Shown: positions 34,491 through 50,697 of the stretch, one piece after another
How the letters are laid out: every line of letters starts with the position of its first letter
Numbering within the stretch: position 1 is the stretch's first letter
Assembly (NCBI RefSeq): GCF_001507855.1
Contig: NZ_LGEN01000012.1
Span: 26,089-90,088, forward strand
DNA length: 64,000 bases
Direction: 5' to 3'
DNA from: Halomonas sp. 54_146
GTDB lineage: Bacteria > Pseudomonadota > Gammaproteobacteria > Pseudomonadales > Halomonadaceae
Position numbers and translations under genes: made by a program
The notes under the pieces: model-generated
What the model saw: only the letters and a program-made list of their open reading frames with translations
Databases searched by the model: none
What the model was told of the DNA's origin: nothing

Positions 34491-35666
34491 GTGATCTCTA
34501 TCAGCGACATTTACGATAAGGACGTCAATTTTTTGTTTGGCTCAGGGGCTTCATTTGGACTTCTTCCCACGCTGCAACTCCAGTTATCTAATGAGAATGG
34601 TGGAAAATTCACGCTAGAGGAACTGGCGACGAAATTCGAGCAAGAACGTGACCGACGTTTCGTTCCGTTGTTCATGCACTATTATTCCACCTGCATCAGG
34701 CCCGCAGAACAACTCACGCTCGAAACAGCAACGGCTACCGACTCCGGTAACCAGGTCATTGAGAACTATCGTACTTTTCTCACTACGATTTTAGAGATGG
34801 TCAAGCGGCGAAAGGCATTGGATCGCTGTTGCAACGTCTTCACAACGAATTACGATGGATGCTTTCCGCTTGTGGCCGACCAATTGCTCAAAGAGGGGCA
34901 CACGGACTTTATCTTGAACGATGGTTCGCGTGGATTTACTAAGCGGATATTACAGGCTCGAAATTTCGGTTCTTACCTTTGCCAAACTGGTGTCTTCGGC
35001 CGTTATCAAACCAGCATCCCACAGATCAACCTGATCCATCTCCACGGGTCGGTGTACTGGAGCAAAACAGACGGGGCCATCTTGGTCGATTACGATATTT
35101 TGTCCAAAGAATCCTTGTTGAGCGAGGATTTGACAACTGCGTTGCAGCAGTTTTCTGACGTTCTCGATAGCTCCACCGCCACGCTAGAAGATTTGCAAGA
35201 GCCAGATTTTGATGACGATGCCCTGTCTGTATTTTGGGCGAAGTATGAACAGATGCCCATCGTCAACCCGACTAAGTGGAAATTCCATGAAACCGTGTAT
35301 GAGGAGCACTATTACCAGATGCTCCGATTGCTCAGTTATGAACTTGAGAAGCCAAATGCAGTACTTATTACCTTCGGTTTTTCCTTCGCTGACGAGCACA
35401 TCCTCAATCTTGTGATGCGCTCTTTGTCAAATCCGGGACTACAAGTATTTGTATGCTGCTTTAATACTGCTGAATACCAAGTGATGTGTGAGAAATTCAA
35501 GGGCTACCGCAACGTCCAGTGTCTTGGCATCGATGGGGAAACCATAGATTTCTCAACGTTTAATAAGAAGATTCTGGCATGGCCAGAGGCATCCATCAAA
35601 ACGGCACAGCCTGCGGCTGAGGCAGGATCTGATGTAATCGATGATGGAGCCGAAGCAAGCGTATGA
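34491..35666 (+). CDS. SIR2-domain protein, NADase-type defence effector
   Basis: 391 aa, GTG start with GGAGG close upstream. SIR2 fold: nucleotide-binding GSGASFG (17-23), TTNYD with Asn120 and Asp122, His185 in LIHLHGSVYW, and FGFSFADEHIL near 315. In defence systems such SIR2 proteins degrade NAD+ during infection. It overlaps the HerA-like gene by ATGA (35663-35666), so the two are coupled: the SIR2-HerA (Nezha-type) pair. G+C is below that of the ICE core. Confidence 0.92.
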   Translation: MISISDIYDKDVNFLFGSGASFGLLPTLQLQLSNENGGKFTLEELATKFEQERDRRFVPLFMHYYSTCIRPAEQLTLETATATDSGNQVIENYRTFLTTILEMVKRRKALDRCCNVFTTNYDGCFPLVADQLLKEGHTDFILNDGSRGFTKRILQARNFGSYLCQTGVFGRYQTSIPQINLIHLHGSVYWSKTDGAILVDYDILSKESLLSEDLTTALQQFSDVLDSSTATLEDLQEPDFDDDALSVFWAKYEQMPIVNPTKWKFHETVYEEHYYQMLRLLSYELEKPNAVLITFGFSFADEHILNLVMRSLSNPGLQVFVCCFNTAEYQVMCEKFKGYRNVQCLGIDGETIDFSTFNKKILAWPEASIKTAQPAAEAGSDVIDDGAEASV

Positions 35667-37465
35667 GTATCCGCGTGGGTGATGTCATCGCTGTTCATGG
35701 CACTAAGGTGATTCTTAAGATCGACGAACAGTCCAGTAAAGAGACGCTATTTCACGGTGGTAAAAAATACAAAGGTGTATCTATCCGCGAATATCTTTCT
35801 ATCCAGCGTGGTTTTCGGGACATCATATGCATGGTTGAAGGTGAATACCTTGACGAAAGCCGAATTGAGACACGGAACGGTAAGCCGTCTTATGTGCGGA
35901 AGGTTGAGGTTAGGCCTATCGGATTCTTTGACCATACAGGCTTCTCCCAAGGGATAAAGTACTTACCGATGATTCAGGACCCTGCATTCCTGATGCCAGA
36001 GGAGCGAATCCGATCCATTTTCGACCGAAAGTCTGATGGCGAATTCAAAATCGGGCACATGCTTAAAGAGGAGATCGCAATCGGGCTTCCATGGAAACGC
36101 CTCTTTAACAGTCATATTGGCATATTTGGAAATACTGGAAGCGGTAAATCCAATACGTTAGCGAAGCTCTACTCCGTACTATTTGATGAAAAACTTCAGC
36201 TAATTGCTGGGAAGAGCCGTTTCATTATTCTCGACTTCAACGGAGAATATGGGGGCGAGCAGCTAGCCCCAGCGGAACACAAAACTGTCTATCAGCTCTC
36301 TACACTGATAAATCCTGATCCTGAAGACCTCAATGCCCGCTTCCCATTGGCACCGCAAGAGTTCTGGGATATTGAGACACTATCATTACTTTTCCAAGCG
36401 ACCACCAACACGCAGCGACCATTCCTAAATCGGGTCATTTCCGGGAAACTTAAGTACGGAGGCAACCGTGCTGCATTGGCGAACTACGCAAAAATGAAGT
36501 TCCGCCAGTCATTCTGCGCAGGCGAAGTTAAACCCGCAACGCTAGATCTTATGCGGACGGTTGCTCGGCGCATGAACAACCAAGCCGTTCAGGATCTCTT
36601 GGCGGAGGTTACGTGGTACCGCAATGGTCGTTTCCATTGTAGGGCGTTCATTGACCCCGATGGAAATCAATACGCGGCACACATCGCACCGACCGTAGAC
36701 ACACTAGATATTCAAGGTCTCGACGAATTTGATGAGCTCGTTCTTCGTGTCAACCTGCAATTGATGTCTGACTTGAATGCAGGTTATGTCCAGTTCGAGC
36801 ATATTCAGCCACTACTCAAGCGCGTTGAGTCGTCGTTATCCAGTATACGCAAAGTCATTGTGATTGGAGATGCTCCACAACCCGAAAGGTTACTAACGGT
36901 CGTTTCTCTACGCCGCTGCAACAACGAAGTCAAAAAAGTCTTACCGTTGCTATTTGCCAAGCACTACTACAACGCACACAAGGCAGCTGTAGATACTCCT
37001 CCCGACCGAACGATTCATGTCATTGTCGATGAGGCTCACAACATCCTATCTGACCAATCCACTCGAGAAAGCGAAAGTTGGAAGGATTATCGACTAGAGC
37101 AGTTCGAGGAAATCATCAAAGAGGGGCGCAAGTTTGGAATGTTTGTCACGATCGCTAGTCAGCGCCCCGCCGACATCTCCCCGACCATTATTTCCCAACT
37201 GCACAACTTCTTCATCCATCGGTTAGTGAATGACCGAGACCTATACCTGATCGACAATACGATTTCAACGCTGGATTCCCTGTCACGAAGCCTCATTCCA
37301 GGGCTTTCTCAAGGTTGCTGTGTGGTAACAGGTACGGCCTTCGATTTACCAATGGTTATACAAGTAGACCGTTTGCCCAGTAATAAGCAACCTAGCAGTG
37401 AGGACGTAGACCTTGAAAAGCTCTGGAACACACCTGCTAATGGCAATGAGGATGCCTGTAGCTAG
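35663..37465 (+). CDS. HerA-like ATPase, partner of the SIR2 effector
   Basis: 600 aa. An N-terminal HAS-barrel-like beta domain (VGDVIAVHGTKVILKIDEQS) precedes a FtsK/HerA-type ATPase with Walker A GNTGSGKS (156-163), Walker B HVIVDEAHNIL (about 452) and the motif ASQRPADISPTIISQLHNFF. Known SIR2-HerA systems form a large complex with nuclease, helicase and NADase activity; the same is inferred here. No frameshift seen. Confidence 0.93.
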   Translation: MSIRVGDVIAVHGTKVILKIDEQSSKETLFHGGKKYKGVSIREYLSIQRGFRDIICMVEGEYLDESRIETRNGKPSYVRKVEVRPIGFFDHTGFSQGIKYLPMIQDPAFLMPEERIRSIFDRKSDGEFKIGHMLKEEIAIGLPWKRLFNSHIGIFGNTGSGKSNTLAKLYSVLFDEKLQLIAGKSRFIILDFNGEYGGEQLAPAEHKTVYQLSTLINPDPEDLNARFPLAPQEFWDIETLSLLFQATTNTQRPFLNRVISGKLKYGGNRAALANYAKMKFRQSFCAGEVKPATLDLMRTVARRMNNQAVQDLLAEVTWYRNGRFHCRAFIDPDGNQYAAHIAPTVDTLDIQGLDEFDELVLRVNLQLMSDLNAGYVQFEHIQPLLKRVESSLSSIRKVIVIGDAPQPERLLTVVSLRRCNNEVKKVLPLLFAKHYYNAHKAAVDTPPDRTIHVIVDEAHNILSDQSTRESESWKDYRLEQFEEIIKEGRKFGMFVTIASQRPADISPTIISQLHNFFIHRLVNDRDLYLIDNTISTLDSLSRSLIPGLSQGCCVVTGTAFDLPMVIQVDRLPSNKQPSSEDVDLEKLWNTPANGNEDACS

Positions 37466-37754
37466 TTCGATGGTAATAGCTAGTCCCTTCAAGGATAAGC
37501 GGATAGCAAACCTGGAGCAGCGCGATCCGCAGAGCGGAGACGCAAGGAGGCATTTCGCTTATTATCTATTTGTATGGATTGACTGCCATCATCCAATAGG
37601 GAACATTCGTCCACCGATCACAACAACGATCCGCTCATGTTCAACGAAGTCGTTCCCCTGTTGGCTTTTGCCAGTAAAACTGTGAGAATCTGGTTTCATG
37701 CCTACCAGGTACAACCTGTAGATAAGAGTTTCACAAGATTGCAAAAGGTTTGTA

Positions 37755-38918
37755 GTGAGTGAAGAGCAGCCAAATCCTATCATCCTGAATGCAGAAGAAC
37801 TTAGAGCAAGCATGCTCTTAAACATCTTTGCAGGGAACCCCCTCTACGGTCTAGACGAAGAATATGCTTTCTTCTACGATGAAACCAATAACATCCGCAA
37901 GTTCTGGATCAGGGATGACGGTTTCAACGAGCAGCCGAAGAACTTTGTCTTAGGTGGAATTGCCCACAAAAAATCCGAACCGTTAACCGGGCTTGATGAG
38001 TTGGTCAAATCGCTGCACATCCAAAAGTCCGCCAAGGAAATCAAGTTCAATCAGCTTGCTACGGGTAGCTATCTCGGCGTGCTGAACTCCAGGAAAATAA
38101 GGACGCTTTTGGAGTGGCTGAGTGCCAATGGGGTGTTCATCCACTACACAAACTTCAATATTCTCTATTGGTCACTGGTTGACATTGTGGATTCGCTCTG
38201 GGATGAGCCCGAGCTGCGCCAGTACATGCCGTATGTCATGCACATCAAGGGCGAACTCTTCAACCTTGCCAATGCGGATTTAGATCGGTTGGTGCCAATT
38301 TTAAAAAAATATCGATTTCCAAATGTTCAGCGAAATGCAAGTTTTTCGTTCATGACGGAATTTTCTGACCTTCTTGAATCAGTCTCCAAGAAGCCACAAT
38401 CTGACATCAGCGAACTGGTTATATACATGGTTCGCAAAGCGGCAAACCTTCCAGAGTTACCCTTCATTGTGGACAACGAAGATGACGTGCTCATTGATAG
38501 CTTCGACAGTCTATTCCTGCGACCCTTGTACATTTACCCAACAAGCTCTCATACCTTTGACAACGAAACCGAGGTTCAGGAGGCGCTGGGGAACACTCAG
38601 ATTGGATACAAGGGAAGGTTCGTAGAATATTCCTTCGTGGACTCCCGAGATTGCATAGAGATTCAATTGTCGGATGGCATCTGTGGATTGCTGGGTAGCC
38701 ACTTCAATTTCTTGGAGGAGCATTCTGTTGAGGAGCTGATTGAGATTAAGAAAAACCTCAACCCTGTCCAACGCCAGACTCTCTCCTTGCTCCGCAAACT
38801 TATAGACATCTCCGACACTCAAAGCAATGGATTCATGTACCGAATCTCTCCGATGGATAGTGACTATAAGAATGACTACTTCTTGCATGACCGTACTTTG
38901 CCCGACCATCTGGTTTAA
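37755..38918 (+). CDS. DUF3800 protein next to SIR2-HerA
   Basis: 387 aa, GTG start. N-terminal DUF3800 signature YAFFYDETNNIRKFWIRDDG with KNFVLGGIAH and KEIKFNQLATGSYLGVLNS, followed by VDSRDCIEIQLSDGICGLLG, whose acidic residues fit the RNase H-like fold proposed for this family. 289 bp separates it from herA and holds no gene, so it may have its own promoter. DUF3800 proteins recur in defence islands; whether it belongs to the SIR2-HerA system is open. Confidence 0.8.
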   Translation: MSEEQPNPIILNAEELRASMLLNIFAGNPLYGLDEEYAFFYDETNNIRKFWIRDDGFNEQPKNFVLGGIAHKKSEPLTGLDELVKSLHIQKSAKEIKFNQLATGSYLGVLNSRKIRTLLEWLSANGVFIHYTNFNILYWSLVDIVDSLWDEPELRQYMPYVMHIKGELFNLANADLDRLVPILKKYRFPNVQRNASFSFMTEFSDLLESVSKKPQSDISELVIYMVRKAANLPELPFIVDNEDDVLIDSFDSLFLRPLYIYPTSSHTFDNETEVQEALGNTQIGYKGRFVEYSFVDSRDCIEIQLSDGICGLLGSHFNFLEEHSVEELIEIKKNLNPVQRQTLSLLRKLIDISDTQSNGFMYRISPMDSDYKNDYFLHDRTLPDHLV

Positions 38919-39055
38919 CGTTGCCAGAGAGGCCAGATCTGCGCGCCTGCCTACCGTGCGACGATCAACTCTGACGCTTAGTTGTACTCTTTCTTAGTGC
39001 GCGATGGTCTGCAAGGGGTCACAACCGAACACTAATCTTCTGCATAAGTCGAAGC

Positions 39056-39076
39056 AAAAAGGGGGCCGAAGCCCCC
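39056..39076 (-). terminator. Intrinsic terminator of radC
   Basis: Minus-strand hairpin GGGGGC-TTCG-GCCCCC (39061-39076) followed by five T (39056-39060), four bases after the radC stop. Perfect arms and a UUCG loop. Confidence 0.85.
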
Positions 39077-39080
39077 AGGA

Positions 39081-39590
39081 TCAGATCAGGCCACGCTCTG
39101 CAAACGACGTAGTGTCACTACCGGCGACAATGACATGATCCAGCGTGCGCACGTCCACCAGTGCCAGCGCCTCTTTGAGCCGCTTAGTGATGGCCTCATC
39201 GGCGCGGCTCGGCTCGGGATTTCCGCTGGGATGATTGTGCGAGAAGATCACCGCCGCCGCATTGAGCCTCAGGGCTTCCTTGACCACCTCGCGTGGATAC
39301 ACCGAAGCACTGTCGATGGTGCCCCTGAACATCTCGGTGTATTCGATCAAGCGATGCTGCGAGTCGAGGAACAGTACTGCGAAGACTTCGTGCTCGAAAC
39401 CAGCCAGCTTGGCACACAGGTACTCTTTGACGAGTGCCGGTGAGGTGAAGGACATACCCCGCTGTATTTTCTGGTCGATGACCTGACGCGCGGCGCCAAG
39501 AATCTGATCTACCGACGCCGGCAGGTAGCGCCCTTGCGCGTCACGGACCAGCAGAGAGGAATCGAACGAGGAAAAGGACAGTTGTGTCAT
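39081..39590 (-). CDS. radC: RadC-family JAB/MPN-domain protein
   Basis: 169 aa. JAB metalloprotease-like domain with EYLCAKLAGFEHEVFAVLFL, HNHPSGNPEPSRADEAITKR (metal ligands His, His and Asp) and HVIVAGSDTTSFAERG. Short mobile-element version without the N-terminal helix-hairpin-helix of chromosomal RadC; a standard Tn4371-core gene. Molecular function is not established. It has its own terminator. Confidence 0.92.
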   Translation of the reverse strand: MTQLSFSSFDSSLLVRDAQGRYLPASVDQILGAARQVIDQKIQRGMSFTSPALVKEYLCAKLAGFEHEVFAVLFLDSQHRLIEYTEMFRGTIDSASVYPREVVKEALRLNAAAVIFSHNHPSGNPEPSRADEAITKRLKEALALVDVRTLDHVIVAGSDTTSFAERGLI

Positions 39591-39957
39591 GATCGTGCTC
39601 CGGTTGCTCGGGCGGAATTGCCCGGAACCGGCGTCAGCACGGCGCAGCGCAAGCTGTCACAGGGTCATGAACGGCCATGGCCGCAAGCGTGCGAGCACGC
39701 GCAGCCCTTGACGGCGAGAACGCCGTGGTACGGTGAAGGGAACAGCAAGACCGCCCATACCCTACCCACTACACACTCTCGCCCTTGGCAAGCGGAGCGC
39801 GCAGACCCTCATGGGCCGGAGGTTTCAGGGATCAAAGCCGGATGGCCGCGATTCGGTACGAAGCGTGGGGCGTAGCCCGCGAGCCCGACGGCGTCACGCC
39901 GGGACACAAGAAATATCGTTAGCGGAAAGTCAAAATGATACTGATCTTCAACCGCAA
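39591..39957. other. Non-coding leader region upstream of radC
   Basis: 367 bp, no convincing gene. GC-rich and structured, with a GGCGTCACGCC palindrome (39890-39900). It probably holds the radC promoter and a long 5' leader on the minus strand, and the 3' end of the MBL operon. No terminator hairpin with a T-run was seen for the MBL operon. Confidence 0.4.
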
Positions 39958-41028
39958 TCAATTCTCTTGATCTTCAGGATATGGAGCTTGGGGAATCGGC
40001 ACCCAGCCATCACGAGTGATGCCAGCGCCGATGCGTATGTTCTGGCCTTCAGTTGCAGTCCAATGCCCACCCCGATGCAGTACAGCTCGAATCACCGATT
40101 TCCTCGGATGATCCTCGTCTGCTTTGGCGGAACTGCATATAGCATTCCAGTGGTGTTTGTCAGGCATTGCGTTCAGGCGTGGACCAAGAAGTTGATCCAT
40201 AATCTCCGTCGAAACGTTGTGTCGTCCGCCATGATGAGGCACCTGAAAGTATCGAATACCTGGCAATGCGAGTCCAGCAACAGGCGCGTGGTCGATTACC
40301 TCTTGCAGCGCTTCACGCCCAGCATCGCCAGTAAGCAGGACGCTGTGGCCGTTTAGGATGGCCGTCTGCACCACACTCATTTCGTTTTCACGACTTGTCG
40401 GCTCTGGTGGAAAATACTCTTCCCCCCACAGGGACTTCATATAGGTGGTCGCGGCCTTCACAACCCGGAATATGCTGCTCAGCACGCTATCTGAAGCACT
40501 TTCCTCAACAGCTTCCGGTGTCTTTGCGGAATCCACAATCAGGTCGAAGTAGCGAGACAGTGTGGGCGCCATCACCACGAAGGGACCGATGCTCTGCCCC
40601 TGAAGAGGAGAATGGATTGGAATTCCCTTCTCCAGCGCAATGTCCTCAAGAATTGCCGTGGCATCATAGATGGATCGCAACTTTCGTCTCAGTGCTTCAG
40701 CTGATTCATAGTTCTCGAATCGAACAATCAACTGGTCCGCGTATATCCACGGCCTGTTGATCCAAAGATTTCTGACCGTGCATTGCTCTAGGACTTTTCG
40801 CAGCCCATTGGCATGATCGCGGTCTGGATGCGTGAGGATCACATGGTCGATGACAGTTGTTCCGTAATAGGTTTTCAGGTGCTCGACAATCTGATCTCCC
40901 GTATCCAGATATCCACCGTCAACGACGTGCACACCCTCAGTGCCATTCACCGAATAACGCAGCGTGATTGCATCCCCGCTTTTCGCTGTTTCGACGCCAA
41001 GAAAATCGATCTCGAAGTAGTCAGCCAT
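39958..41028 (-). CDS. ComEC-type metallo-beta-lactamase-fold hydrolase (third gene of E2-E1-JAB operon)
   Basis: 356 aa, no signal peptide. Metal site HPDRDH at 67-72, LLTGDAGREAL near 233 and FQVPHHGGRHN near 265, the pattern of ComEC/Rec2-like cytoplasmic MBL hydrolases (phosphodiesterase/nuclease-like). It lies 45 bp after the E2-E1-JAB gene. The operon's first gene is another, diverged MBL. Substrate unknown; a nucleic acid or cyclic nucleotide is possible for this fold. Confidence 0.85.
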   Translation of the reverse strand: MADYFEIDFLGVETAKSGDAITLRYSVNGTEGVHVVDGGYLDTGDQIVEHLKTYYGTTVIDHVILTHPDRDHANGLRKVLEQCTVRNLWINRPWIYADQLIVRFENYESAEALRRKLRSIYDATAILEDIALEKGIPIHSPLQGQSIGPFVVMAPTLSRYFDLIVDSAKTPEAVEESASDSVLSSIFRVVKAATTYMKSLWGEEYFPPEPTSRENEMSVVQTAILNGHSVLLTGDAGREALQEVIDHAPVAGLALPGIRYFQVPHHGGRHNVSTEIMDQLLGPRLNAMPDKHHWNAICSSAKADEDHPRKSVIRAVLHRGGHWTATEGQNIRIGAGITRDGWVPIPQAPYPEDQEN

Positions 41029-41073
41029 ACATCCCTTTCGTTTTATGCCAAGAAAGTGCCGGCGGCTTTGCCT

Positions 41074-43329
41074 TTACCAGCGATCCACCGCACACCTGAG
41101 TCCTGTCGGAGTCCATACCAACGACACGGCGGGAAGGCCGCCAGCATCCTCGGCGATGCCGCGCAACGTATTTCGGTCTATGCCCGAATGTGCGCCGCCT
41201 TTCGGGTGGCTATGCCAAGTGCCGATGAAGGCCAGATACCCCAAAGAGGTTCCATTCGCTGTGCGCAAATTTTGAACAAGCCCATTCGTCCCAAGGACGA
41301 AGCGGGCGGCCTCCCGAATGCTGTCAGGCGGCGCATCCACGAGGCCAGCAATGGTGATGGTTCGATTCTCAAACGAGATACGACCGACCAAGGCTCCACC
41401 TGTTTCCAGAGCGCCCCAGCGCAGCGCATCAGCATGGATCGCTTGCACGACAGGGTGCAGAATCCGAATGTTCCAGCCACCATCGTCTGCTACGTTGAGC
41501 ACAGTGGTCGGGCCGAGGCTGGTGCTGGTCCATGCCATGCCGAGGCCTTCGGTATCCGAGACCCCGGCGCAAAGCGTCGCCTCCTTCGGGAGTCCGCCAA
41601 CGAGCCAGCGTTCCAGTTGCAGGCCAGCTAATGAAGCAGAACGCGAAACAACGGCATCGGACATTGGCATCGTCAGTGAACGGCAGTTGTCGCCCACAAA
41701 AATACGCGTCGGCTCAGACGTATCGCCAGCAATCGACGCCCGCAGTTCCGGCACAAACCGACAGCACTCGAACAAGAATGCCGTAAGATCGTCAACCCGA
41801 CCGGCGCGACCAGGCCCTTCAAGCAAAACCGCGACACAGCGCCCCTGGCCATACATGACGATCCGTGCCAACCGCGCAGGGGATTGGTTCAGCGCCGTTG
41901 ATTGCGTTTCTGCGGCCAACACCTGAAGTGAGGCTGTCGCATCCACGATGAGGGCCGCATCCTGCGGAACGGTTGCAGCAAACTGCGCAGCATCGACCAA
42001 GAGAGTCACTGCGTCGGTGTCGAACGCTTGCGATTGAAGATGCGACAGCGACTCAAAGGCCGTCTTCATCAGCGTCGACTTCCGAGGTGGAACCAGCATC
42101 GGTCCCCGCTCAATGAGCGCATGCCGCGCCGCATTGTGAGGCGACATAGACTCGTTATCGACGAAAGTCATCGAACCGAAGCCCGCTCGCCCCAGTTGCA
42201 TCGCGATTTTCGATCCCAAACTTCCGCAGCCGAGCATGACCAGCGGCTGCGATGTGGCTGCTGCTGGAATGCCGGACGCCCTTGCCAGCAGCTCGGGAGA
42301 CAACGCATGCGCGTGAAAGGCTGAATGAACCGTGGCGTTTCGCTCCAGGAGTGATCGCGCGTTGAGTTCATAGCGCACAATGTAGGGCAATACTTCGACG
42401 CTTCTCCCTGGTGAGCCCACAAGCGACACTGGCCTTTGCACAGTCAGAATAACAATCGCGTACAAGCCATACACCCAGCCACGCGAGTCCTGCTGCATAT
42501 CCAGGATCGAACGTCCGTAGTAGCCATCCAGGCTTTGGGCCAAAGCGTCACGATCTATGCCCAGTTCCACTGCTCTATCGAGCAGCGTCGCGAGATCGAC
42601 AACCGTCTCCGGTTGATAGCGCCCGACCACATACGGGTGATTGCCGGTCATTGGCGCCCGCGCGATGAAGGCTGCGGCATGGCCATTCCCCCACTTCCCC
42701 AACTTGTCGTTGTGAACATCCTGCGAGAAAACAGTATCGAATTGCGCGGTCAGTTCGGTATTGATGATGGCGTACATACCGCCATCGATCGTCACATAGC
42801 GTGCGGGAACTACCAGAATCGTGCCGTCAACGGGAGCGTTGGCCGCGACCTTCTCGGCACTGAATATGACGGTGGAAGGACAACTGTCTCGGCGCGTCGG
42901 CTCCCACCCATGCTCCAAATCCAGCAATGTTCCGGCTGCGGCCTTGTGCAGCCAATCGATCAACTGGTCGACAATGGCGTCCAGACCAAACCGATGCAGT
43001 AACTCGTCCAACGACCCCTCGAACAGGCACGGCGAGACCAACTCGCCTTCCTGATGGGGGTTGATGTGCGGCAAGTTGAGCGGGAAGTCTGCACGCAAGA
43101 AGGGCTTGGGGGCGAATAGGGGCCAGTCATTATCGAATACCAGAACGCATGTCTCGACGGCACGTACGCCAGTTTGGGAGACGCCGTTACGCCGAGACCT
43201 GCTTGGCAGTTGAACGGCAACATCGACCTCTATCTGTGTCGATACACCGCTTGCCTTTGGCTCGCCAACGCGGATCAAGCCACGATGACGTTGAAGTTGA
43301 TGCAGTGCGTCTGCGATGGCGTCTGTCAT
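41074..43329 (-). CDS. E2-E1-JAB triple-module ubiquitin-like conjugation protein
   Basis: 751 aa. Residues 1-150: E2/UBC-like region with Cys101 in LVSPCLFEGSLDELL. About 360-600: ThiF/E1 adenylation fold, LGCGSLGSKIA (366-376), Asp391 in FVDNESMSPHNAAR, and a candidate transfer Cys549 (DNCRSL). About 630-751: JAB deubiquitinase-like domain, Glu642, His706-x-His708, Ser715 and Asp718 (TWHSHPKGGAHSGID). All three catalytic sets are intact, so it could both attach and remove a ubiquitin-like tag. No ubiquitin-like gene or CD-NTase is adjacent. Starts in ATGA overlap with the upstream MBL gene. Confidence 0.88.
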   Translation of the reverse strand: MTDAIADALHQLQRHRGLIRVGEPKASGVSTQIEVDVAVQLPSRSRRNGVSQTGVRAVETCVLVFDNDWPLFAPKPFLRADFPLNLPHINPHQEGELVSPCLFEGSLDELLHRFGLDAIVDQLIDWLHKAAAGTLLDLEHGWEPTRRDSCPSTVIFSAEKVAANAPVDGTILVVPARYVTIDGGMYAIINTELTAQFDTVFSQDVHNDKLGKWGNGHAAAFIARAPMTGNHPYVVGRYQPETVVDLATLLDRAVELGIDRDALAQSLDGYYGRSILDMQQDSRGWVYGLYAIVILTVQRPVSLVGSPGRSVEVLPYIVRYELNARSLLERNATVHSAFHAHALSPELLARASGIPAAATSQPLVMLGCGSLGSKIAMQLGRAGFGSMTFVDNESMSPHNAARHALIERGPMLVPPRKSTLMKTAFESLSHLQSQAFDTDAVTLLVDAAQFAATVPQDAALIVDATASLQVLAAETQSTALNQSPARLARIVMYGQGRCVAVLLEGPGRAGRVDDLTAFLFECCRFVPELRASIAGDTSEPTRIFVGDNCRSLTMPMSDAVVSRSASLAGLQLERWLVGGLPKEATLCAGVSDTEGLGMAWTSTSLGPTTVLNVADDGGWNIRILHPVVQAIHADALRWGALETGGALVGRISFENRTITIAGLVDAPPDSIREAARFVLGTNGLVQNLRTANGTSLGYLAFIGTWHSHPKGGAHSGIDRNTLRGIAEDAGGLPAVSLVWTPTGLRCAVDRW

Positions 43330-44513
43330 GATGACCCGTGCGGCATGGGAGTGCGCGCGGAGGTGATCACGGCGGCAGCCTTTGATCCTGCTTCCTTCTT
43401 CGATGGAGGCTGCACCCCCTGAGCGGTGACGGTGAAAACGAGAGGCTCCACGGATTTTTCGCTCGGGTACTCGCCGGTGCAGTAGAACTCGCCTTTTACC
43501 TCGTCCACGATTGCCACGTACTCACGCTTTGCGCGGATGCAGGGCGGATCGCTGTCGTCATCTTTAATCGGTTTGCTACTGGTGACGATGACAGCGCCGT
43601 CACGGGTCTGCGAAAGCGCACTGCGGGCATCGGTATCGAGCTTGGCCTTTTCGCGGAGGGTAGACCAACTGTCTTCGGACAGTGAACGCCAAGAGCAGTG
43701 ATGTGGTGCCTGCATGATGTCGTACTCAAGCGCATCGGCTTCGGCCTTGTGGCGCTGCCACTGGCGGTTCCAGATAAATACCTCAGCATCGCCACCAGTA
43801 AGGAACTTCGCGCCATCTGGCGTCTGTGCATCAGCGGCCAATGTGATGTTCAGGATCACACTGGACTGGTTCTTGACCAGGCACTCTTCGTCGTCGTCCT
43901 GGGCATCCAGAGGCGCCAGAAGGAACGCGGAGAAGAATGCGGAACTCTTTCCATTGATCGTCGAGAAGCGCGTGTCCACCTTCCGTAAAATCGAGGTGAG
44001 ATCATCAGTTTTTCCGTCGATGTCCTCGCCCATGATCTGAATGCGATCACCGTTTGCAACGGCGAAGTTCTGGTCGCGGTTCAGTTGTACACGTCGACGT
44101 GCCTCCGTGTTGAATGCTTTAGCGTCGTCACTCAAGGTGTGCGTCTTGCTGGCGCGTCGAAACACAATCGGGGACGACCACATCTCGCGGATCACGATCT
44201 TCTTGTCCTTGTCGTCCTTCTTGTCATCCGGGTACTTGTCCAACGATCCTAGGTAGAAATGCCGCGCCAAACCACGGCAATGATCCTGGTCCGGGTGGCT
44301 CAACAGGAAGGCATCGACATACGGCCTGCCGTTCTCATCCTTCTTCAGCCGTTCGCGCAAGTCCTTGGCAACATCGCGCACGTCCTTATCGGGGTCGTCG
44401 GCGTCTTGTCGGATGTTGATGTCGATCAGCAGCGTCGTCGCGTCGAGATCGCCGAATTTGATGAGGGTCATGTCCCCGTTGTCGACGGGGAAAAACGTGA
44501 TGGTTGTAGGCAT
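43326..44513 (-). CDS. MBL-fold hydrolase, first gene of the E2-E1-JAB operon
   Basis: 395 aa. Metal site HPDQDH at 73-78, FLTGGDAEVFIW and APHHCSW mark a ComEC-like metallo-beta-lactamase fold, with a charged insertion (DKYPDDKKDDKDKK) after the HxDxDH loop. The tail after ~365 is basic and flexible (PPSKKEAGSKAAAVITSART). It overlaps the E2-E1-JAB start by 4 bp. A promoter with palindromes lies upstream, shared with the divergent WYL gene. Confidence 0.85.
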   Translation of the reverse strand: MPTTITFFPVDNGDMTLIKFGDLDATTLLIDINIRQDADDPDKDVRDVAKDLRERLKKDENGRPYVDAFLLSHPDQDHCRGLARHFYLGSLDKYPDDKKDDKDKKIVIREMWSSPIVFRRASKTHTLSDDAKAFNTEARRRVQLNRDQNFAVANGDRIQIMGEDIDGKTDDLTSILRKVDTRFSTINGKSSAFFSAFLLAPLDAQDDDEECLVKNQSSVILNITLAADAQTPDGAKFLTGGDAEVFIWNRQWQRHKAEADALEYDIMQAPHHCSWRSLSEDSWSTLREKAKLDTDARSALSQTRDGAVIVTSSKPIKDDDSDPPCIRAKREYVAIVDEVKGEFYCTGEYPSEKSVEPLVFTVTAQGVQPPSKKEAGSKAAAVITSARTPMPHGSS

Positions 44514-44548
44514 ACAGGTCTCCGGGTGGACGGCCGAAAAGTAATCGA

Positions 44549-44581
44549 GTATAATTATTATACGGATATTTTTTATACCCG
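44549..44581. promoter_or_regulatory. Divergent promoter with WYL-regulator operator candidates
   Basis: Perfect palindrome GTATAAT-T-ATTATAC at 44549-44563, then an imperfect inverted repeat CGGATAT-(5)-ATACCCG at 44563-44581, in the 88-bp AT-rich gap between the MBL gene and the WYL gene. The palindrome contains TATAAT on both strands, so binding there should block both promoters. Confidence 0.7.
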
Positions 44582-44601
44582 TCTACTTTATAGGCGTAAC
44601 G

Positions 44602-45504
44602 ATGCGAGAAACCCCTATCACTACTGTCGAACCAACTGAGCCCAAGGGACTAAGCTGGGGGTTGGAGAGTAGGCTTCAATTTATTGATTTCCGTCTGCGC
44701 TGGGAGCGGCGCATTAACCGCATGGACCTCACCGAGCACTTCGGCATATCGGTTCCCCAAGCATCACTGGATATTGCCAAGTACACTGAGTTGGCACCGA
44801 GCAACCTGACTTACGACCGCAGTTCCAAGACTTACACGGCATCACCGAGTTTTTGCCCGCTTTACCAACGAAGTTCGGGCCAACGCTATCTAGCGGAGTT
44901 GCTGGCGACGAAAATGGGAGTTGTCGAGCCGGCGGCCAGCTTCATCGGCTCCGCGCCGGAGACAGATTGGGCTCCTTCCCCCTGGCGCACGATCAATGAG
45001 CAGACCGTCGAAGCAGTAGTCCGGGCAATCCGGCAGCAGGAAGCGATTCGGGTGAGCTACCAGTCCATGACGTCCTTGGACGAATCGATTCGCCTGCTGT
45101 CCCCTCACGCGCTTGGCAACGACGGTTTTCGCTGGCACGTGCGCGCGTTTTGCCACAAACGCCAGCGCTTTAGTGATTTTGTCCTAGCTCGAATCTTGCG
45201 CATCGACGGTTTCGAGGCAAGCCAAGTGGACTTCAGCCAGGATGCGCATTGGCATACTGTACTGACGCTTGTCCTTGCGCCGCACCCCGATTTGCCGACA
45301 GCCAAGAGGCGAGTCTTGGAATTGGATTACGGCATGGAAGATGGCGAGGTCAAACTTCCGTGCCGCCAAGCATTTCTGTACTACACATTGAGGCGTTTGG
45401 GCTTGCACACCAAGGAAGCTCCTGACCCTCTCACGCAACAGATCACGCTGAAAAACCGAAATGAAATTCAACCCTACATTGATGGATTGACAACGCAGGC
45501 CTGA
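44602..45504 (+). CDS. WYL-domain transcriptional regulator (BrxR/CapW-like)
   Basis: 300 aa. An N-terminal winged helix (LQFIDFRLRWERRINRMDLT, EHFGISVPQASLDIAKYTEL) is followed by a WYL domain (IRVSYQSMTSLDESIRLLSP, GFRWHVRAFCHKRQRFSDFV) and a C-terminal WCX-like region. Size and layout match BrxR/CapW, repressors of BREX, CBASS and other defence operons. Divergent from the MBL/E2-E1-JAB operon and followed after 6 bp by a putative membrane-protein gene. Sensing a nucleotide or nucleic-acid signal is inferred from the family. Confidence 0.88.
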   Translation: MRETPITTVEPTEPKGLSWGLESRLQFIDFRLRWERRINRMDLTEHFGISVPQASLDIAKYTELAPSNLTYDRSSKTYTASPSFCPLYQRSSGQRYLAELLATKMGVVEPAASFIGSAPETDWAPSPWRTINEQTVEAVVRAIRQQEAIRVSYQSMTSLDESIRLLSPHALGNDGFRWHVRAFCHKRQRFSDFVLARILRIDGFEASQVDFSQDAHWHTVLTLVLAPHPDLPTAKRRVLELDYGMEDGEVKLPCRQAFLYYTLRRLGLHTKEAPDPLTQQITLKNRNEIQPYIDGLTTQA

Positions 45505-45510
45505 CTCTTC

Positions 45511-46299
45511 ATGACAACAATTTTCGAACTGGTCAAAGACCCCTATGAGCGTAAAGCGCGCGTTACCCCAGGACTTCTTGTGGCCTTGCCATTGTTAGTC
45601 CCCTTACTGTGCGTCTATGGAGCTAAGCATCCTGTGCTTACAGGTGTGGTTGGCCTGCTCGGCGGCTGCGGTGCTATTTATGCCCTTGCAAGTGTTGCTC
45701 GTGGGCGCGGGAAAAAACTTGAAGAGATGCTGGTTGCAAAATGGGGCGGCATGCCAACAACCATCGCGTTACGTCATCGTGATAGGTTTCTTGATAGTGT
45801 CAGCAAACAACGTTACCACACTGCAATTACGGAGAAGCTCGGTATTGCTATGCCGACAGCAGAAGAAGAATCAGCAAACCCTGACAAGGCGGATGATATC
45901 TATATTGGTGCAACCAGGCGGCTTCGTGAGCTGACGCGCTCTAATAAAAAGCTCTTGCTAAAAGAGAACATTGCCTATGGATTTCACCGCAATATGCTGG
46001 CGATGAAACCGGTTGGCATCGTATCGTGCCTTTTGGGTATCGCCTACGGATTAGTGATTGCAAAAGTTCTGCAGGTAATACCGCCCCATTTTGTCCCGGC
46101 ACATCTTGCAGAGCCGGGGCTTGCCGCAGGCTTGACGTTGCTTACTTCTATGGCGTTACTTGCTGGCTGGCTATTGTATTTCGATAAGAGCGCAGTTAGG
46201 CGAATGGGGTTCGTTTATGCAGAACGCCTGTTTGAGTGCTTGCCGATTTTGCCTTCTTCAGCACCATTGGAATGGGTCTCAACACCAACTAGAGACTGA
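45511..46299 (+). CDS. Predicted four-helix membrane protein downstream of the WYL regulator
   Basis: 262 aa. Two N-terminal helices (about 20-40 and 44-63), a cytoplasmic region with conserved-looking motifs (KWGGMPTTIALRHRDRFLDS, YGFHRNMLAMKPVGI), then two C-terminal helices (about 167-188 and 205-225). No usual ribosome-binding site; probably coupled to the WYL stop 6 bp before. I do not know a named family. Its layout resembles 4-TM pore-forming effectors of defence systems, a hypothesis only. Confidence 0.7.
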   Translation: MTTIFELVKDPYERKARVTPGLLVALPLLVPLLCVYGAKHPVLTGVVGLLGGCGAIYALASVARGRGKKLEEMLVAKWGGMPTTIALRHRDRFLDSVSKQRYHTAITEKLGIAMPTAEEESANPDKADDIYIGATRRLRELTRSNKKLLLKENIAYGFHRNMLAMKPVGIVSCLLGIAYGLVIAKVLQVIPPHFVPAHLAEPGLAAGLTLLTSMALLAGWLLYFDKSAVRRMGFVYAERLFECLPILPSSAPLEWVSTPTRD

Positions 46300-46344
46300 G
46301 GTTCGAGTCAATCTCCAGACAAGCCATTTGGCTCGACTCGAGCT

Positions 46345-47661
46345 TTAGCTTGCAGAATTATTTGGTTCGGTACGGGACGTTTCCTCGTAGCGGGCCGCAG
46401 CGTGATTATGTCTGAGATCCGAAACTACGGCGATCAATCTATTGACCGGCTCGGCCAATCGCTTCGGTAGTACACGGTGCTCGGAAAAGATTTTTTCATT
46501 GGCGATCCATCGCTTCGCAACCCAGACATCGTCTTCGGGGTGATTATTGTCAACACCGTTGCAATACTTATAGCCAACAAGGGCATCGGTATGCGATAGC
46601 AGGATACGCGCCATGGTCATGTGGAAACGGTGCGCCTGAAGATCTGCTGGCCCCTTGGGGCGAGGAAGGGTCAAGCGGAGACATTTCTGATCATTAAAGT
46701 CCTTCCAATCAGGACCGACGACCTGCCCGGCACGCTCCAGCATCTTGCGGGCCTGGTCGTTCTTACCGTTGACTATCGCCACAGCAACCGTCCCTTTCGG
46801 ATACTCCAGCTTTTCGGCCAGGAGATTCATCCAGTTCACCAGCTTGTTCAGCGTTTTATCGTCGGCAAACACGAGGAACTGATGGCGCTGATCGTCGTCG
46901 AGAAACGCCGGCAATTGCGCATAGAGTGGGTATAGCAAGTCATGGATATAGATGTAGGTCTGTCGTCGCCCTTGTTCATGGTTACGGGTGGTTGCCGTCA
47001 ACACTTTCTGTGCCCATTTCGGAGTAAGTTCGGGCAGGGTCATTTCGGTGATATCGATGGAGATGAGTGGGAAGCCGAGAGACTTTCCGATCAGCGCCTT
47101 CCGACCGTCAAAGGCGTGGCCAAGTTCGATTTCAACACCGCCAAGCACCATCGGTTCAGCCTGGACCGGCGGTCCAAGCACAGCCACATCGAGCCGGAAC
47201 TTGCTGCCGAAAGGCGTCTCTAGAGGATGCTCAGTTGCCACTCGGTCGGCGCCAAGCAGCAAGTTCCCCTCCAGCGGATAATCCGATGAATCCAAATCGC
47301 TGAACGACCAGGGCATTGCAAGCCCAGCACGCAAGCGCCTTGAGAGCTCGTCCGCGACAAGTTCTTTCGCCCGCCGGTGTTCAGGGCTTTCCTGAATAGC
47401 ACTCCATCGGTTAGCTTCTTCATCGTCGAAGTGAGCTTTAGGCTTAAAGGTGTGCTGAGTAGGCAGTACTCGAAAATGGGATCGTCGGCGCAATTTGCCA
47501 TTTTCAAAGGAAGGACTGACCCACGTCACCATTTGCCGCGATCCATCGGAAGAGACCAATGGCCAAAGCTTGCGCGCATGTTCCCGGCTACGGACGTCAC
47601 GTGCCGCAATCGTGGTCTGGAAAAGCCCTTTCCGGGAAAAAACAACAATCGCCTCGTCCAT
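46345..47661 (-). CDS. CoiA/PD-(D/E)XK-like predicted nuclease
   Basis: 438 aa from the ATG at 47661; the longer frame would overlap the HEPN gene. Middle region reads SPEHRRAKELVADELSRRL (helix often preceding CoiA-type nucleases), Asp158 in RLDVAVLG, Glu177-x-Glu179 in GVEIELGHAFDGRK and Lys188/193, a D-ExE-K pattern of PD-(D/E)XK enzymes. Then a long helical part and a His/Arg-rich C terminus. Last gene of a minus-strand operon; 11 bp after the HEPN gene. Nuclease call is motif-based. Confidence 0.6.
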   Translation of the reverse strand: MDEAIVVFSRKGLFQTTIAARDVRSREHARKLWPLVSSDGSRQMVTWVSPSFENGKLRRRSHFRVLPTQHTFKPKAHFDDEEANRWSAIQESPEHRRAKELVADELSRRLRAGLAMPWSFSDLDSSDYPLEGNLLLGADRVATEHPLETPFGSKFRLDVAVLGPPVQAEPMVLGGVEIELGHAFDGRKALIGKSLGFPLISIDITEMTLPELTPKWAQKVLTATTRNHEQGRRQTYIYIHDLLYPLYAQLPAFLDDDQRHQFLVFADDKTLNKLVNWMNLLAEKLEYPKGTVAVAIVNGKNDQARKMLERAGQVVGPDWKDFNDQKCLRLTLPRPKGPADLQAHRFHMTMARILLSHTDALVGYKYCNGVDNNHPEDDVWVAKRWIANEKIFSEHRVLPKRLAEPVNRLIAVVSDLRHNHAAARYEETSRTEPNNSAS

Positions 47662-47672
47662 TGGCTCCCCCT

Positions 47673-48491
47673 TTACGCAGGCACAGCAGCAAGCCTCGTG
47701 ACGCCATCCAGCTTGCGGTGAATCAGTGACACCAGCGTCAGGATGTCCAGGGCGTCTTGTTCGGACATCGGCCAATTCGTCTTCGCAGCATGGGCAAGCG
47801 GATTGCGTACCGCTCCAAACAGACCGACCAGCAGGTTTGCAAAACCTTTCTGTTCGCTCTTTTCGGACTCCGAGGTAAGTGTCTTTAAGGCAAGAACGGG
47901 TTGTTGGCCCGCAAAAGCCTTATTCACAAGGTCAGCACCATCGCCGCTCAGGCCTGAGAGCTGGCGAATCCGCTCGGCGACGCCCTTGGTTGCTTCAAAG
48001 ACTGCGTGAAAATAGTTCTCTTCCATTAGCTCCGCACGACAGTAGTTCAGGACTTCTGCATGCACAGTCCGACTTTCCAGCGCCGCCTTGAGGCGCCCGG
48101 CTCGGGCTCGGGCCTCATCCAGCGTATTGGCCTTATCGGCATATCCAACTTTGCCGTCTTCACGCACGTAGAAACCCGAAAAGGCCAAGACAACATTGAG
48201 TTCATCTCGGCGCCACGCGAATGCTCCAGGATTACTGGCATAGCTCACCGGATTCATCGCGCGATTGATGAACATGATGAGATGGTTACCAACCTTATGC
48301 TGGTTCTGCGCGCCAGCCAACGCATTGAACAGCCGTTTCCACTTGGTCATGTCTGGGGATGAGTCGGCTACTTGGACCTCTTGTAACAACCGCCCGATCT
48401 GCGTGCCAGTCAGACCTTGTGCGGTGTCGGCAAGGACGCGGCAGGCAGCTTCCAGGTGCTGGGAGCTGAACGGGGCAATTTGTGAAGCCAC
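47673..48491 (-). CDS. TIGR02391/Ymh-like HEPN-domain protein, abortive-infection type
   Basis: 272 aa with a GTG start at 48491 preceded by GGAGG; the frame upstream overlaps the antitoxin and lacks a ribosome-binding site. The C-terminal part has the HEPN ribonuclease motif RNPLAH (Arg229, His234) preceded by GFANLLVGLFGAV, as in TIGR02391 (Ymh) proteins. N-terminal ~150 residues are helical. HEPN proteins often cleave RNA in abortive infection. It sits 25 bp after the antitoxin gene, so is probably under its control. Confidence 0.75.
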   Translation of the reverse strand: MASQIAPFSSQHLEAACRVLADTAQGLTGTQIGRLLQEVQVADSSPDMTKWKRLFNALAGAQNQHKVGNHLIMFINRAMNPVSYASNPGAFAWRRDELNVVLAFSGFYVREDGKVGYADKANTLDEARARAGRLKAALESRTVHAEVLNYCRAELMEENYFHAVFEATKGVAERIRQLSGLSGDGADLVNKAFAGQQPVLALKTLTSESEKSEQKGFANLLVGLFGAVRNPLAHAAKTNWPMSEQDALDILTLVSLIHRKLDGVTRLAAVPA

Positions 48492-48516
48492 TATCTGTAC
48501 CTCCGTCGCACATTCA

Positions 48517-48822
48517 TCAGATAATGGCCTGCAAACCCTTGTCGGCGATGACGTTAAGTAGCTTGAGCGCCGGGCCTGCTGGGTGCGTTTCACCCTGTTC
48601 CCACTTGCGTACCGTCGAAGCCGTAGTGTGCAGGTGATGGGCGAACACTGGCTGACTGAAATGCAACGCTTCACGCAGACGCTTGATGTCGTCCGCGCTG
48701 AACTCGCGCACCGGCGGTGGGCAGATCGCGTCGAATTCACGCATCGTCACTTTGCTGATCGCGCCAGCGTCTTGCAATGCAGCCAGATCACCGCGCAAGG
48801 ATTCAATGATTTTACTTGTCAC
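48517..48822 (-). CDS. Xre-family antitoxin (HigA/NadS-like)
   Basis: 101 aa from a GTG at 48822 with GGAGG before it. Helix-turn-helix in the C-terminal half (IKRLREALHFSQPVFAHHLH, STVRKWEQGETHPAGPALKL), the NadS/HigA arrangement. Overlaps the toxin gene by 11 bp. Expected to neutralise the toxin and repress the operon at the palindrome in the promoter (49210-49220). Confidence 0.88.
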   Translation of the reverse strand: MTSKIIESLRGDLAALQDAGAISKVTMREFDAICPPPVREFSADDIKRLREALHFSQPVFAHHLHTTASTVRKWEQGETHPAGPALKLLNVIADKGLQAII

Positions 48823-49186
48823 AACATACCTCCAATAGAACACCAGCCTGCAATGCCTTCACCAATTCCTTAGCCGACAGCTCTAGAAATACCTTGCCGG
48901 CATATTGCAGCGCTTTTTTCTCTTCCCGCGTGATGTTCGACTTGTCGCTTTTCGGGAACCCGTGCAGGAATACATAACGGCGGCCAACACGGGCCGATAA
49001 CAAGGTGCGGTAGCCACCGCTCTTACCCGCACCAGGGCGAGCTACCCGCTTCTTATAAAGGTGGCCGCCCAAGTCGGCATCAATTAGCCCGTTCTCCATT
49101 TCCTGGACCGCCTTGCACAGGGCCGTATCGGACAGTTTCTCGCCCGCTTGCCACCGCGCAAAATCCTTTCGCTTCAAGACATTCAT
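48812..49186 (-). CDS. RelE/HigB-like toxin (DUF1044 type)
   Basis: 124 aa from the ATG at 49186. KRKDFARWQAGEKLSDTALC, then DLGGHLYKKRVARPGAGKSG, GYRTLLSARVGRRYVFLHGF and SDKSNITREEKKAL give the RelE-fold DUF1044 pattern; such toxins usually cleave mRNA. First gene of the operon toxin-antitoxin-HEPN-CoiA-like. A good promoter lies 18 bp upstream. Confidence 0.88.
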   Translation of the reverse strand: MNVLKRKDFARWQAGEKLSDTALCKAVQEMENGLIDADLGGHLYKKRVARPGAGKSGGYRTLLSARVGRRYVFLHGFPKSDKSNITREEKKALQYAGKVFLELSAKELVKALQAGVLLEVCCDK

Positions 49187-49203
49187 ACACATCCACCCCA
49201 ATA

Positions 49204-49232
49204 ACTATACCCGTAACGGGCATGATTGTCTA
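49204..49232 (-). promoter_or_regulatory. Promoter and operator of the toxin-antitoxin/HEPN operon
   Basis: Minus strand: -35 TAGACA (49232-49227), 17-bp spacer, -10 TATAGT (49209-49204). The spacer starts at the -10 side with the palindrome CCCGT-A/T-ACGGG (49210-49220), an ideal site for antitoxin repression. Confidence 0.75.
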
Positions 49233-49263
49233 TCCCTCGCAGGAGCCCCCAATGGTCGCCCAC

Positions 49264-49298
49264 GCTCAATAGTCGCACCGCTATTGCGACTATTGAGC
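49264..49298. repeat. Perfect 14-bp inverted repeat between int and the toxin gene
   Basis: Arms GCTCAATAGTCGCA and TGCGACTATTGAGC flank a 7-base centre. It lies 25 bp after the int stop and 32 bp before the -35 of the toxin promoter. No T-run follows on either strand, so it is a weak terminator at best; regulator binding is an alternative. Confidence 0.8.
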
Positions 49299-49322
49299 GG
49301 CAAACCTGTACACCGACCCTGC

Positions 49323-50522
49323 TCATACTGAGGCTCCCTTGACACGCGGAGCCCCTATAATTGTCTTACGCCGGTTCGCTACGAGTTCGGCCGCCTCACG
49401 AACCGGATCATCCTCGGTATGGATGTAGCGCATAAACATGGTCACAGTCTTGTGCGCTGTCAGTACCATACCGACTTTGACTGGAATACCCGAGTTGGCG
49501 ATGTCTGTGGCCGAGCGATGTCGGATGCCATGCGTGCCGACGTGAGTGACGCCAGCCGCCTTGAGTGTACGGGTCCAGCCGCCGTAATACTCCCCATAGG
49601 TCAAGTGGGTGAGCGGGTTACGCGGCGATGGCAGCACATAACGTCCGCCTTCCTGTCGAGGTGCCGTGGAAAGCAGTCGATAGGCTTCCTCGCTCATGGG
49701 TTTTGACATACCACCGGTCTTGCTGTCGGGCCAGACCACCCGGCGGTTCTCCAGGTCAATCCATTCCCATTCAAGCAGCACTATTTCAGAACGCCGGGCA
49801 GCGAACTCGAATTGCAGACGAATTGCCAGCGGGATGACATAAGGCACTAAGCGTTCAGCCTCAACTTGGTCGAGGTGCTTGAATAGCTTGGCCATCTCTC
49901 CGTCAGTAATGAGCCGGGTTGTCTTGCCACCGGTGTACAGCGGAATGTGTCGGCACGGGTTCGAGCCATCCGGGCGGTACCCCCAAATCTCAGCAAGGTT
50001 GAACATCTTACGCAGGACGGACAGAGCTTTATTGGCCTCGCCTGGCTTATAATCGAGCTTCTTCATCATTGTCGCCACGTCGGCACGTTTCACATCCTTT
50101 ACCTTGAAACGACCCAGGATTGGGATGATGTTGCGGTCAATATTGCCTTGGTAGCCCCTCTGAGTACTGGGTTTGTTGCGGTGCCTGGAGTAGTCCTCCA
50201 TGAACTTCACGCACAGTTCCTTGACGGTGGGCGCTTTGCGCGCTTCGGCCTTGGCGGCCCCCGGATCGCCGCCTCGGCGAACCTCGGCCAGCCAGTTTTG
50301 CGCCAATGAACGGGCCTGTTCGACAGTCAACTCTCCGTACAGGCCCAGTGCTGGCTTACGCCGCTCACCGGCATTCGTCCGGTACTGGAGCATGAAGACC
50401 TTGCGGCCGGCCGGCGTGATCTTGCACAGGAAGCCGGGGACGAGAGTGTCGCGCAACTCGACGGGCTGCGCCTGGGGCTTTGCCGCATCAATTGCGGACT
50501 TGGTGAGTTTGATCTTGGCCAT
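49323..50522 (-). CDS. int: Tn4371-family site-specific tyrosine integrase
   Basis: 399 aa from the ATG at 50522 (GGAG six bases upstream). DUF4102-type arm-binding N terminus (LTKSAIDAAKPQAQPVELRD, GFLCKITPAGRKVFMLQYRT), core-binding domain (about 100-190), and catalytic domain with Arg in EFAARRSEIVLLEWEW, HxxR in GTHGIRHRSATDIANSG, and the nucleophile Tyr in MFMRYIHTED. All key residues present. It catalyses ICE integration and excision; the attachment core lies upstream next to metK. Confidence 0.96.
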   Translation of the reverse strand: MAKIKLTKSAIDAAKPQAQPVELRDTLVPGFLCKITPAGRKVFMLQYRTNAGERRKPALGLYGELTVEQARSLAQNWLAEVRRGGDPGAAKAEARKAPTVKELCVKFMEDYSRHRNKPSTQRGYQGNIDRNIIPILGRFKVKDVKRADVATMMKKLDYKPGEANKALSVLRKMFNLAEIWGYRPDGSNPCRHIPLYTGGKTTRLITDGEMAKLFKHLDQVEAERLVPYVIPLAIRLQFEFAARRSEIVLLEWEWIDLENRRVVWPDSKTGGMSKPMSEEAYRLLSTAPRQEGGRYVLPSPRNPLTHLTYGEYYGGWTRTLKAAGVTHVGTHGIRHRSATDIANSGIPVKVGMVLTAHKTVTMFMRYIHTEDDPVREAAELVANRRKTIIGAPRVKGASV

Positions 50523-50697
50523 AGCTGACTCCTTGGAAAGACCCGTTTCCAGGAGCCTGTTAGGAGCCAAGCGGATGGAAGCCGGGTCAAGTTTCGGAAA
50601 GCACCGGCATATGATGAATTAGCCTAAGTTATTGATAAACCTGCTGTAGCGAGCTTAGGCGTAGTCCAGCGAAGTACGGTGCTGGAGTCATGGTGAA

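Follow-up and report, generated by a model that had tools for sequence, protein, structure and literature searches.

Enzymes of the E1, E2 and JAB type take part in bacterial immunity in the Bil and Bub operons, which also encode a ubiquitin-like protein. A related arrangement forms row 6a of Iyer et al. 2006, whose section on these operons describes an E2-E1-JAB triple module that in most operons lies almost always beside a metallo-beta-lactamase (MBL); the 6a operons usually have two genes, and they are described there with an E1, an E2 and a deconjugase and without a known substrate (PMC1779556). For type II CBASS, the part of Jenson et al. 2023 on the cGAS terminus reports that the terminal glycine or alanine of cGAS is conserved only where the operon has a complete Cap2 and Cap3, that thioester formation and conjugation of cGAS depend on this terminal residue, and that Cap3 cuts there (PMC10097602). 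Our literature search found no paper on the anti-phage activity of 6A-MBL, and the word "anti-phage" rests on the NCBIfam name, which implies a source; the same search found no description of the MBL of these pairs as a modifier or of the membrane partner reported below.

The window, i.e. the whole stretch of 64,000 nucleotides of Halomonas sp. 54_146 that was analysed, contains a five-gene cassette with such a pair (Table 1). All five genes were confirmed at the positions given by the first-pass annotation, as were the 4-bp overlap between the E2-E1-JAB and MBL1 genes and a 45-bp gap. As in 6A-MBL, an MBL is adjacent and the E2, E1 and JAB parts lie within one protein in the order that had been claimed, with Pfam matches to Prok-E2_A (E 3.9e-52), ThiF (1.2e-9) and Prok-JAB (1.4e-10). 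The triple-module protein scored 548.6 bits against NCBIfam NF058523, "anti-phage 6A-MBL system cap2_3 protein" (cut-off 320), and MBL1 scored 446 bits against NF058524, "6A-MBL system MBL-fold protein" (cut-off 220). Because of row 6a and of these NCBIfam matches, the E2-E1-JAB and MBL1 pair is known as a kind, and the description of the system as uncharacterised had to be dropped. Two different MBLs are indeed present in the operon, but of these MBL1 alone is part of the known 6A-MBL pair, as MBL2 comes from a different MBL family. Unlike the 6a operons of Iyer et al., the cassette adds MBL2, a CapW regulator and a four-helix membrane protein (4TM), which fits no NCBIfam model.

Table 1. Position of the cassette genes and related features in the window.
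Feature	Position	Strand	Remarks
MBL2, 356 aa	39958-41028	-	PADLOC PDC-M48B family; without terminal glycine
E2-E1-JAB triple-module protein, 751 aa	41074-43329	-	NCBIfam NF058523, 6A-MBL_cap2_3
MBL1, 395 aa, ComEC-like metallo-hydrolase	43326-44513	-	NCBIfam NF058524, 6A-MBL_enzyme
Predicted-disordered tail of MBL1, residues 373-395, ending PMPHG393-SS	43329-43397	-	G393 codon at 43335-43337
Imperfect palindrome, 21 bp, candidate CapW operator	44562-44582		In the divergent promoter
CapW/BrxR-type WYL regulator, 300 aa	44602-45504	+	Matches solved CapW/BrxR structures
Four-helix membrane protein (4TM family A), 262 aa	45511-46299	+	No family match in the libraries searched

Unlike the Bil and Bub operons, no ubiquitin-like gene was seen in the cassette gaps, which at 45, 88 and 6 bp leave no room for another modifier gene, in agreement with the first-pass annotation; likewise, no beta-grasp gene was seen within the cassette. 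The annotation had also reported that a CD-NTase, as in type II CBASS, is missing, and no such match is listed among the ten genes at 34491-47775 (for the E2-E1-JAB protein, among the best 25 of 51 PADLOC families). A ComEC-like MBL attached to a defence operon is also found in the trypsin-MBL pairs of HamM, Avs1a and Lamassu, as given in the portion of PMC12799240 on these pairs; unlike them, the ten genes scanned show no Pfam match to a trypsin-like protease.

Co-occurrence of the five genes in other genomes, on which the first-pass annotation had made its single-system reading depend, was surveyed in 63 genome loci fetched by E2-E1-JAB (L006-L068), about one third of which gave only weak or partial matches. 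All five genes are intact and in the order of the window in 23 of the 63 loci (in L029, L032 and L039 the second MBL is shorter), a grouping that is not due to chance, and they occur in another order in L031 and L043. That the five genes form a linked set, the membrane protein and CapW included, is therefore supported. Cassettes with the same profile scores occur in several genera, and 12 Acinetobacter plasmid records, one of which was read, match both E2-E1-JAB and 4TM. Broken copies were found of MBL2 in L006 and L024, of 4TM in L025 and of E2-E1-JAB in L045, with the remaining genes at full length.

The loci with an E2-E1-JAB frame of at least 650 aa above 150 bits were grouped in 38 clusters, whose features were read on one representative each and whose members vary (e.g. 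L028 is without 4TM, and L033 and L042 are without MBL2). L002, L003, L045, L053, L054, L057-L060 and L062-L068 were left out of these clusters, and pieces or repeats of one locus (L001, L076-L083, L090, L108 and L109) were excluded. MBL1 is a separate neighbour in 36 of the 38 clusters, is run together by a frameshift in L035 and is missing in L056. Among the representatives, 4TM family A is present in 25 and missing in 13, MBL2 is present in 16 and missing in 22, and CapW is present in 17 and missing in 21; thus, only MBL1 and E2-E1-JAB are near constant. Five of the 13 clusters without 4TM (L038, L041, L046, L105 and L106) show in its slot a second membrane family with no detectable similarity to 4TM, L051 shows PADLOC PDC-M48A in that slot, and L037, L044 and L104 show other hydrophobic proteins; no membrane protein was found in L040, where the contig starts inside MBL1, L055 and L107. 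Furthermore, 4TM occurs without MBL2 in 11 of the 38 representatives, and it lies directly behind E2-E1-JAB in L048-L050, L052 and L070-L072.

A sample of 398 Pseudomonadota genomes, chosen independently of the locus, contained E2-E1-JAB over the cut-off in six, the genome of the window being one of the positives. In all six, an NF058524 MBL adjoins E2-E1-JAB on the same strand and has a glycine at or near its end (PHGSS, THGLR, KHGDDD, AHGCRNKDS, GHG and RAG), and each system has a multi-pass membrane neighbour: family A in four, the second family in G271 and, in G183, another protein with four hydrophobic stretches. A seventh NF058524 protein, in G006 (L127), ends VGYGD and adjoins two frames, some 2.4 kb from each other, that match E2-E1-JAB. 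Three genomes have E2-E1-JAB relatives below the cut-off, and in two of them (G207 and G082) the stretches read held no full MBL1 or 4TM. The 4TM protein was found in 6 of the 398 genomes, two of which (G384 and G039) have it with MBL2 and without E2-E1-JAB.

The WYL gene, which had been called BrxR/CapW-like, is so by its matches to Stenotrophomonas maltophilia CapW (7tb6, E 1.3e-73) and BrxR (7t8k, E 4.3e-44), and it has both the subfamily sequence of CapW/BrxR and the place beside an immune operon. In the part of PMC13373217 that concerns it, CapW is a repressor released by single-stranded DNA; it adjoins some CBASS operons, and CapW or CapH plus CapP lies beside 219 of 544 Bub operons. The shared promoter, described earlier as palindromic, holds a 21-bp imperfect palindrome that pairs in 7 of 8 arm positions, occurs at one place within the window and is a candidate CapW operator. 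Its ACG-N15-CGT outline is present in 17 of 24 CapW-MBL1 gaps, in 16 at the aligned place, compared with a mean of 0.29 and a maximum of 2 in the shuffle control, the 24 gaps being related and not independent.

Alignment of 39 non-redundant E2-E1-JAB sequences (frames of 640-900 aa scoring >300 bits) shows that 25 of the 751 positions are invariant and that 14 of these 25 are residues expected in the active sites of E2, E1 or JAB, which bears out the earlier claim that the three sites are retained. These 14 are H88 and C101 in the E2 part, which likewise do not vary in an alignment of 17 E2 regions; G367, G369, G372, D391, R402, K417 and C549 in the E1 part, with C549 taken to be the E1 cysteine and the others assigned to the ATP site; and E642, H706, H708, S715 and D718 in the JAB part, presumably the metal site. 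Therefore, the E2, E1 and JAB activities appear to be under selection together.

The core of MBL1 has the ComEC beta-lactamase-like domain as its best PDB fold match (9ic4, E 1.3e-13), in agreement with the profile search (9ic4, E 9.6e-5), and its putative metal site (H73, D75, D77, H78, D242 and H271) does not vary among the 40 sequences aligned. The column of G393 is likewise invariant in these 40 chosen sequences, which include Bacteroidota and the cyanobacterium Nostoc and go down to 23% identity. In the AlphaFold model the core is confident and residues 373-395 have a pLDDT below 50; the NF058524 model stops at residue 366, 27 residues before G393. Among the best 120 of 3360 homologs passing the E-value, a list that includes the protein of the window and many close relatives, 117 end in HG followed by zero to six residues: 41 end exactly in HG, 67 in HG plus two residues and nine in HG plus one, three, four or six. 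The extensions after the glycine are of 34 different kinds and unconserved, and the three exceptions (350, 320 and 380 aa) stop before the end of the tail. In these listed homologs, mean conservation is 72% in residues 362-390 and 82% in the body, and it reaches 98-99% in H392 and G393. When 117 of the 120 (proteins shorter than 370 aa omitted, the 380-aa exception falling inside a cluster) were clustered at 80% identity, all 36 representatives kept the terminal glycine.

The ends of MBL1 and MBL2-type proteins were also compared. Of 35 non-redundant MBL1 proteins found beside E2-E1-JAB, 31 have the motif [HY]G within the last eight residues, versus none of 32 MBL2-type proteins, and any glycine is present there in 35 of 35 versus 16 of 32, a contrast that confounds family with association since the control belongs to another MBL subfamily; the other four MBL1 ends carry RAG or FG. 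L113, the one MBL1-like protein found without E2-E1-JAB, has no terminal glycine, but because it scores only 48 bits against the NF058524 cut-off of 220 it is not a true within-family control, and it was omitted from the 35. The ends of several MBL2-type proteins, unlike those of MBL1, are acidic (EPDE, DDTDN, VEDND, DVEDDD and EDQEN among L073, L074, L093, L095, L096 and the window protein at 39958).

MBL2 matches PADLOC PDLC04676 (PDC-M48B) with 509 bits and mostly accompanies the membrane protein, also at loci without E2-E1-JAB. The first-pass annotation had proposed a 4-TM protein, and the 262-aa product indeed shows four hydrophobic stretches, with a model of pLDDT 86 and pTM 0.81. No PDB fold match was found for it; all Pfam and NCBIfam rows for the window protein and 31 relatives are weaker than E 0.001, and none of the 31 family members has a PADLOC match at E 0.01. 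The cassette is like PDC-M48, which pairs a protein A with an MBL B, in that MBL2 is PDC-M48B and L051 has PDC-M48A in the membrane slot, and unlike it in that the 4TM protein of the window matches no PDC-M48A model. Clusters with 4TM but without E2-E1-JAB numbered 21 after removal of L045 and L054, whose E2-E1-JAB genes are cut, from an initial 23, and in 19 of the 21 4TM lies beside an MBL, the exceptions being L089 and L098. The MBL and 4TM clusters without E2-E1-JAB come from Actinomycetota, Staphylococcus, Pseudomonadota and contigs of a viral collection. All ten MBLs that were scanned at further 4TM loci have matches to PDC-M48B models, and searches of plasmid records with 4TM and with E2-E1-JAB hit neighbouring places in unrelated bacteria. 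Because of these clusters, the MBL and the membrane protein look like a wider module to which E2-E1-JAB is an addition, and the 4TM protein is, judged by association, likely a partner of MBLs. Behind MBL and 4TM, two Bradyrhizobium plasmids show a TIR-domain protein, directly at L095:5673-6374 and after a transposase gene at L096:7281-7985; the domain was checked in L095, and the protein is a possible further effector. In L073, a DUF3800 gene follows MBL and 4TM.

The conserved residues and the analogy with type II CBASS point to MBL1 as the probable ubiquitin-like modifier of the E2-E1-JAB protein, joined to targets via G393, with JAB trimming it or reversing the link. MBL1 is not a beta-grasp protein, and neither is cGAS. 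The cGAS/Cap2 precedent supports this reading because it shows the same terminal-glycine signature: as in type II CBASS, E2-E1 and JAB activities are predicted, a separate ubiquitin is missing and the partner enzyme has a conserved C-terminal glycine, although here JAB is fused and the enzyme that ends in glycine is an MBL, which often extends past that residue. MBL1 as modifier would account for the missing ubiquitin-like gene. Whereas the first-pass annotation had suggested that the tagging may be directed at an MBL protein, the evidence points instead to MBL1 being the tag, since MBL1 has the conserved C-terminal glycine and MBL2, 4TM and CapW do not. By analogy with the chemistry of Cap2/Cap3 on cGAS, the E1 part would adenylate MBL1 at G393, the E2 part would transfer it via this residue to the proteins targeted, and JAB would first mature MBL1 by removing the Ser-Ser after G393 and later reverse the link. 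MBL1 would be a nuclease positioned or activated by conjugation, and phage proteins or the membrane module could be among the targets. The membrane protein, often paired with MBL2, may be an effector or dock on the membrane side, and together with an MBL it could be a split version of the ComEC channel-plus-nuclease plan; in the weakest step of the proposal, 4TM, with MBL2 where present, would work in the inner membrane region and, like ComEC, perhaps handle incoming DNA. In line with what is published on CapW at other operons, the regulator would repress this cassette until the DNA is damaged.

The same tail could also be read as a site of activation, where JAB clips it to activate MBL1, much as a trypsin-like protease activates the HamM pro-nuclease, and E2-E1 serves to conjugate something other than MBL1. 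Activation of an MBL by a partner protease is reported for HamMAB in the relevant part of PMC12799240, and two residues follow G393 in the MBL1 of the window; however, 41 of the 120 listed homologs end at HG, with nothing left to clip, and the E2 and E1 cysteines, which need a carboxyl donor, are as invariant as the JAB site, so we judge this improbable. A very improbable reading is that a ubiquitin-like protein from another part of the genome is the modifier and that the tail merely docks MBL1 to the E1. It would fit a cassette in which no beta-grasp gene was seen, but a near-terminal glycine followed by unconserved residues is what a donor needs and not a docking peptide, and MBL1 and E2-E1-JAB are adjacent in all six sampled genomes over the cut-off.

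Two independent modules under one regulator, MBL1 with E2-E1-JAB and MBL2 with the membrane protein, would be compatible with MBL1 as the modifier. The frequency of 4TM beside an MBL in clusters without E2-E1-JAB and the loci in which MBL2 is broken and the rest intact (L006 and L024) speak for them. We nevertheless regard such a division as rather unlikely, given the 11 representatives with 4TM and without MBL2, and the membrane slot that is filled by another family in 5 of the 13 clusters without family A and by PDC-M48A in L051. An exchangeable membrane part suits an effector.

The cassette is predicted to be a virus-defence system. With MBL1 as the modifier, the conserved glycine names a candidate substrate for the 6a operons, down to one residue, and, if true, the principle that a defence enzyme is conjugated through its tail would extend from cyclases to nuclease-fold proteins. 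Lone-MBL defence candidates, in turn, gain a membrane component that is absent from the family libraries searched. We put forward, tentatively, a further class of ubiquitin-like immunity, in which the 'ubiquitin' would be an active ComEC-like nuclease that E2-E1-JAB attaches covalently, by the nuclease's C-terminal glycine, to targets of the phage or the membrane, beside a four-helix partner of lone MBLs in several phyla. Atg8 has a single terminal glycine, and the single terminal glycine of MBL1 together with a membrane partner may mean attachment to the membrane itself.

The cassette sits between a SIR2-HerA pair and an integrase. The SIR2-like protein and the HerA helicase at 34491-37465 (PADLOC SIR2, 172 bits, and HerA, 543 bits) are a second likely defence system, followed by a DUF3800 protein at 37755-38918, which is the PADLOC single-gene candidate PDC-S51 (363 bits), and by a RadC-type JAB protein of only 169 aa at 39081-39590, which adjoins the end of the MBL operon. 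On the other side, a 476-aa protein without significant Pfam, NCBIfam or PADLOC family is encoded at 46345-47775. The region at 47673-50570 contains a Hypoth_Ymh protein, an HTH/RelE toxin-antitoxin-like pair and a phage-type integrase by an S-adenosylmethionine synthetase gene, and is possibly the end of an integrated element.
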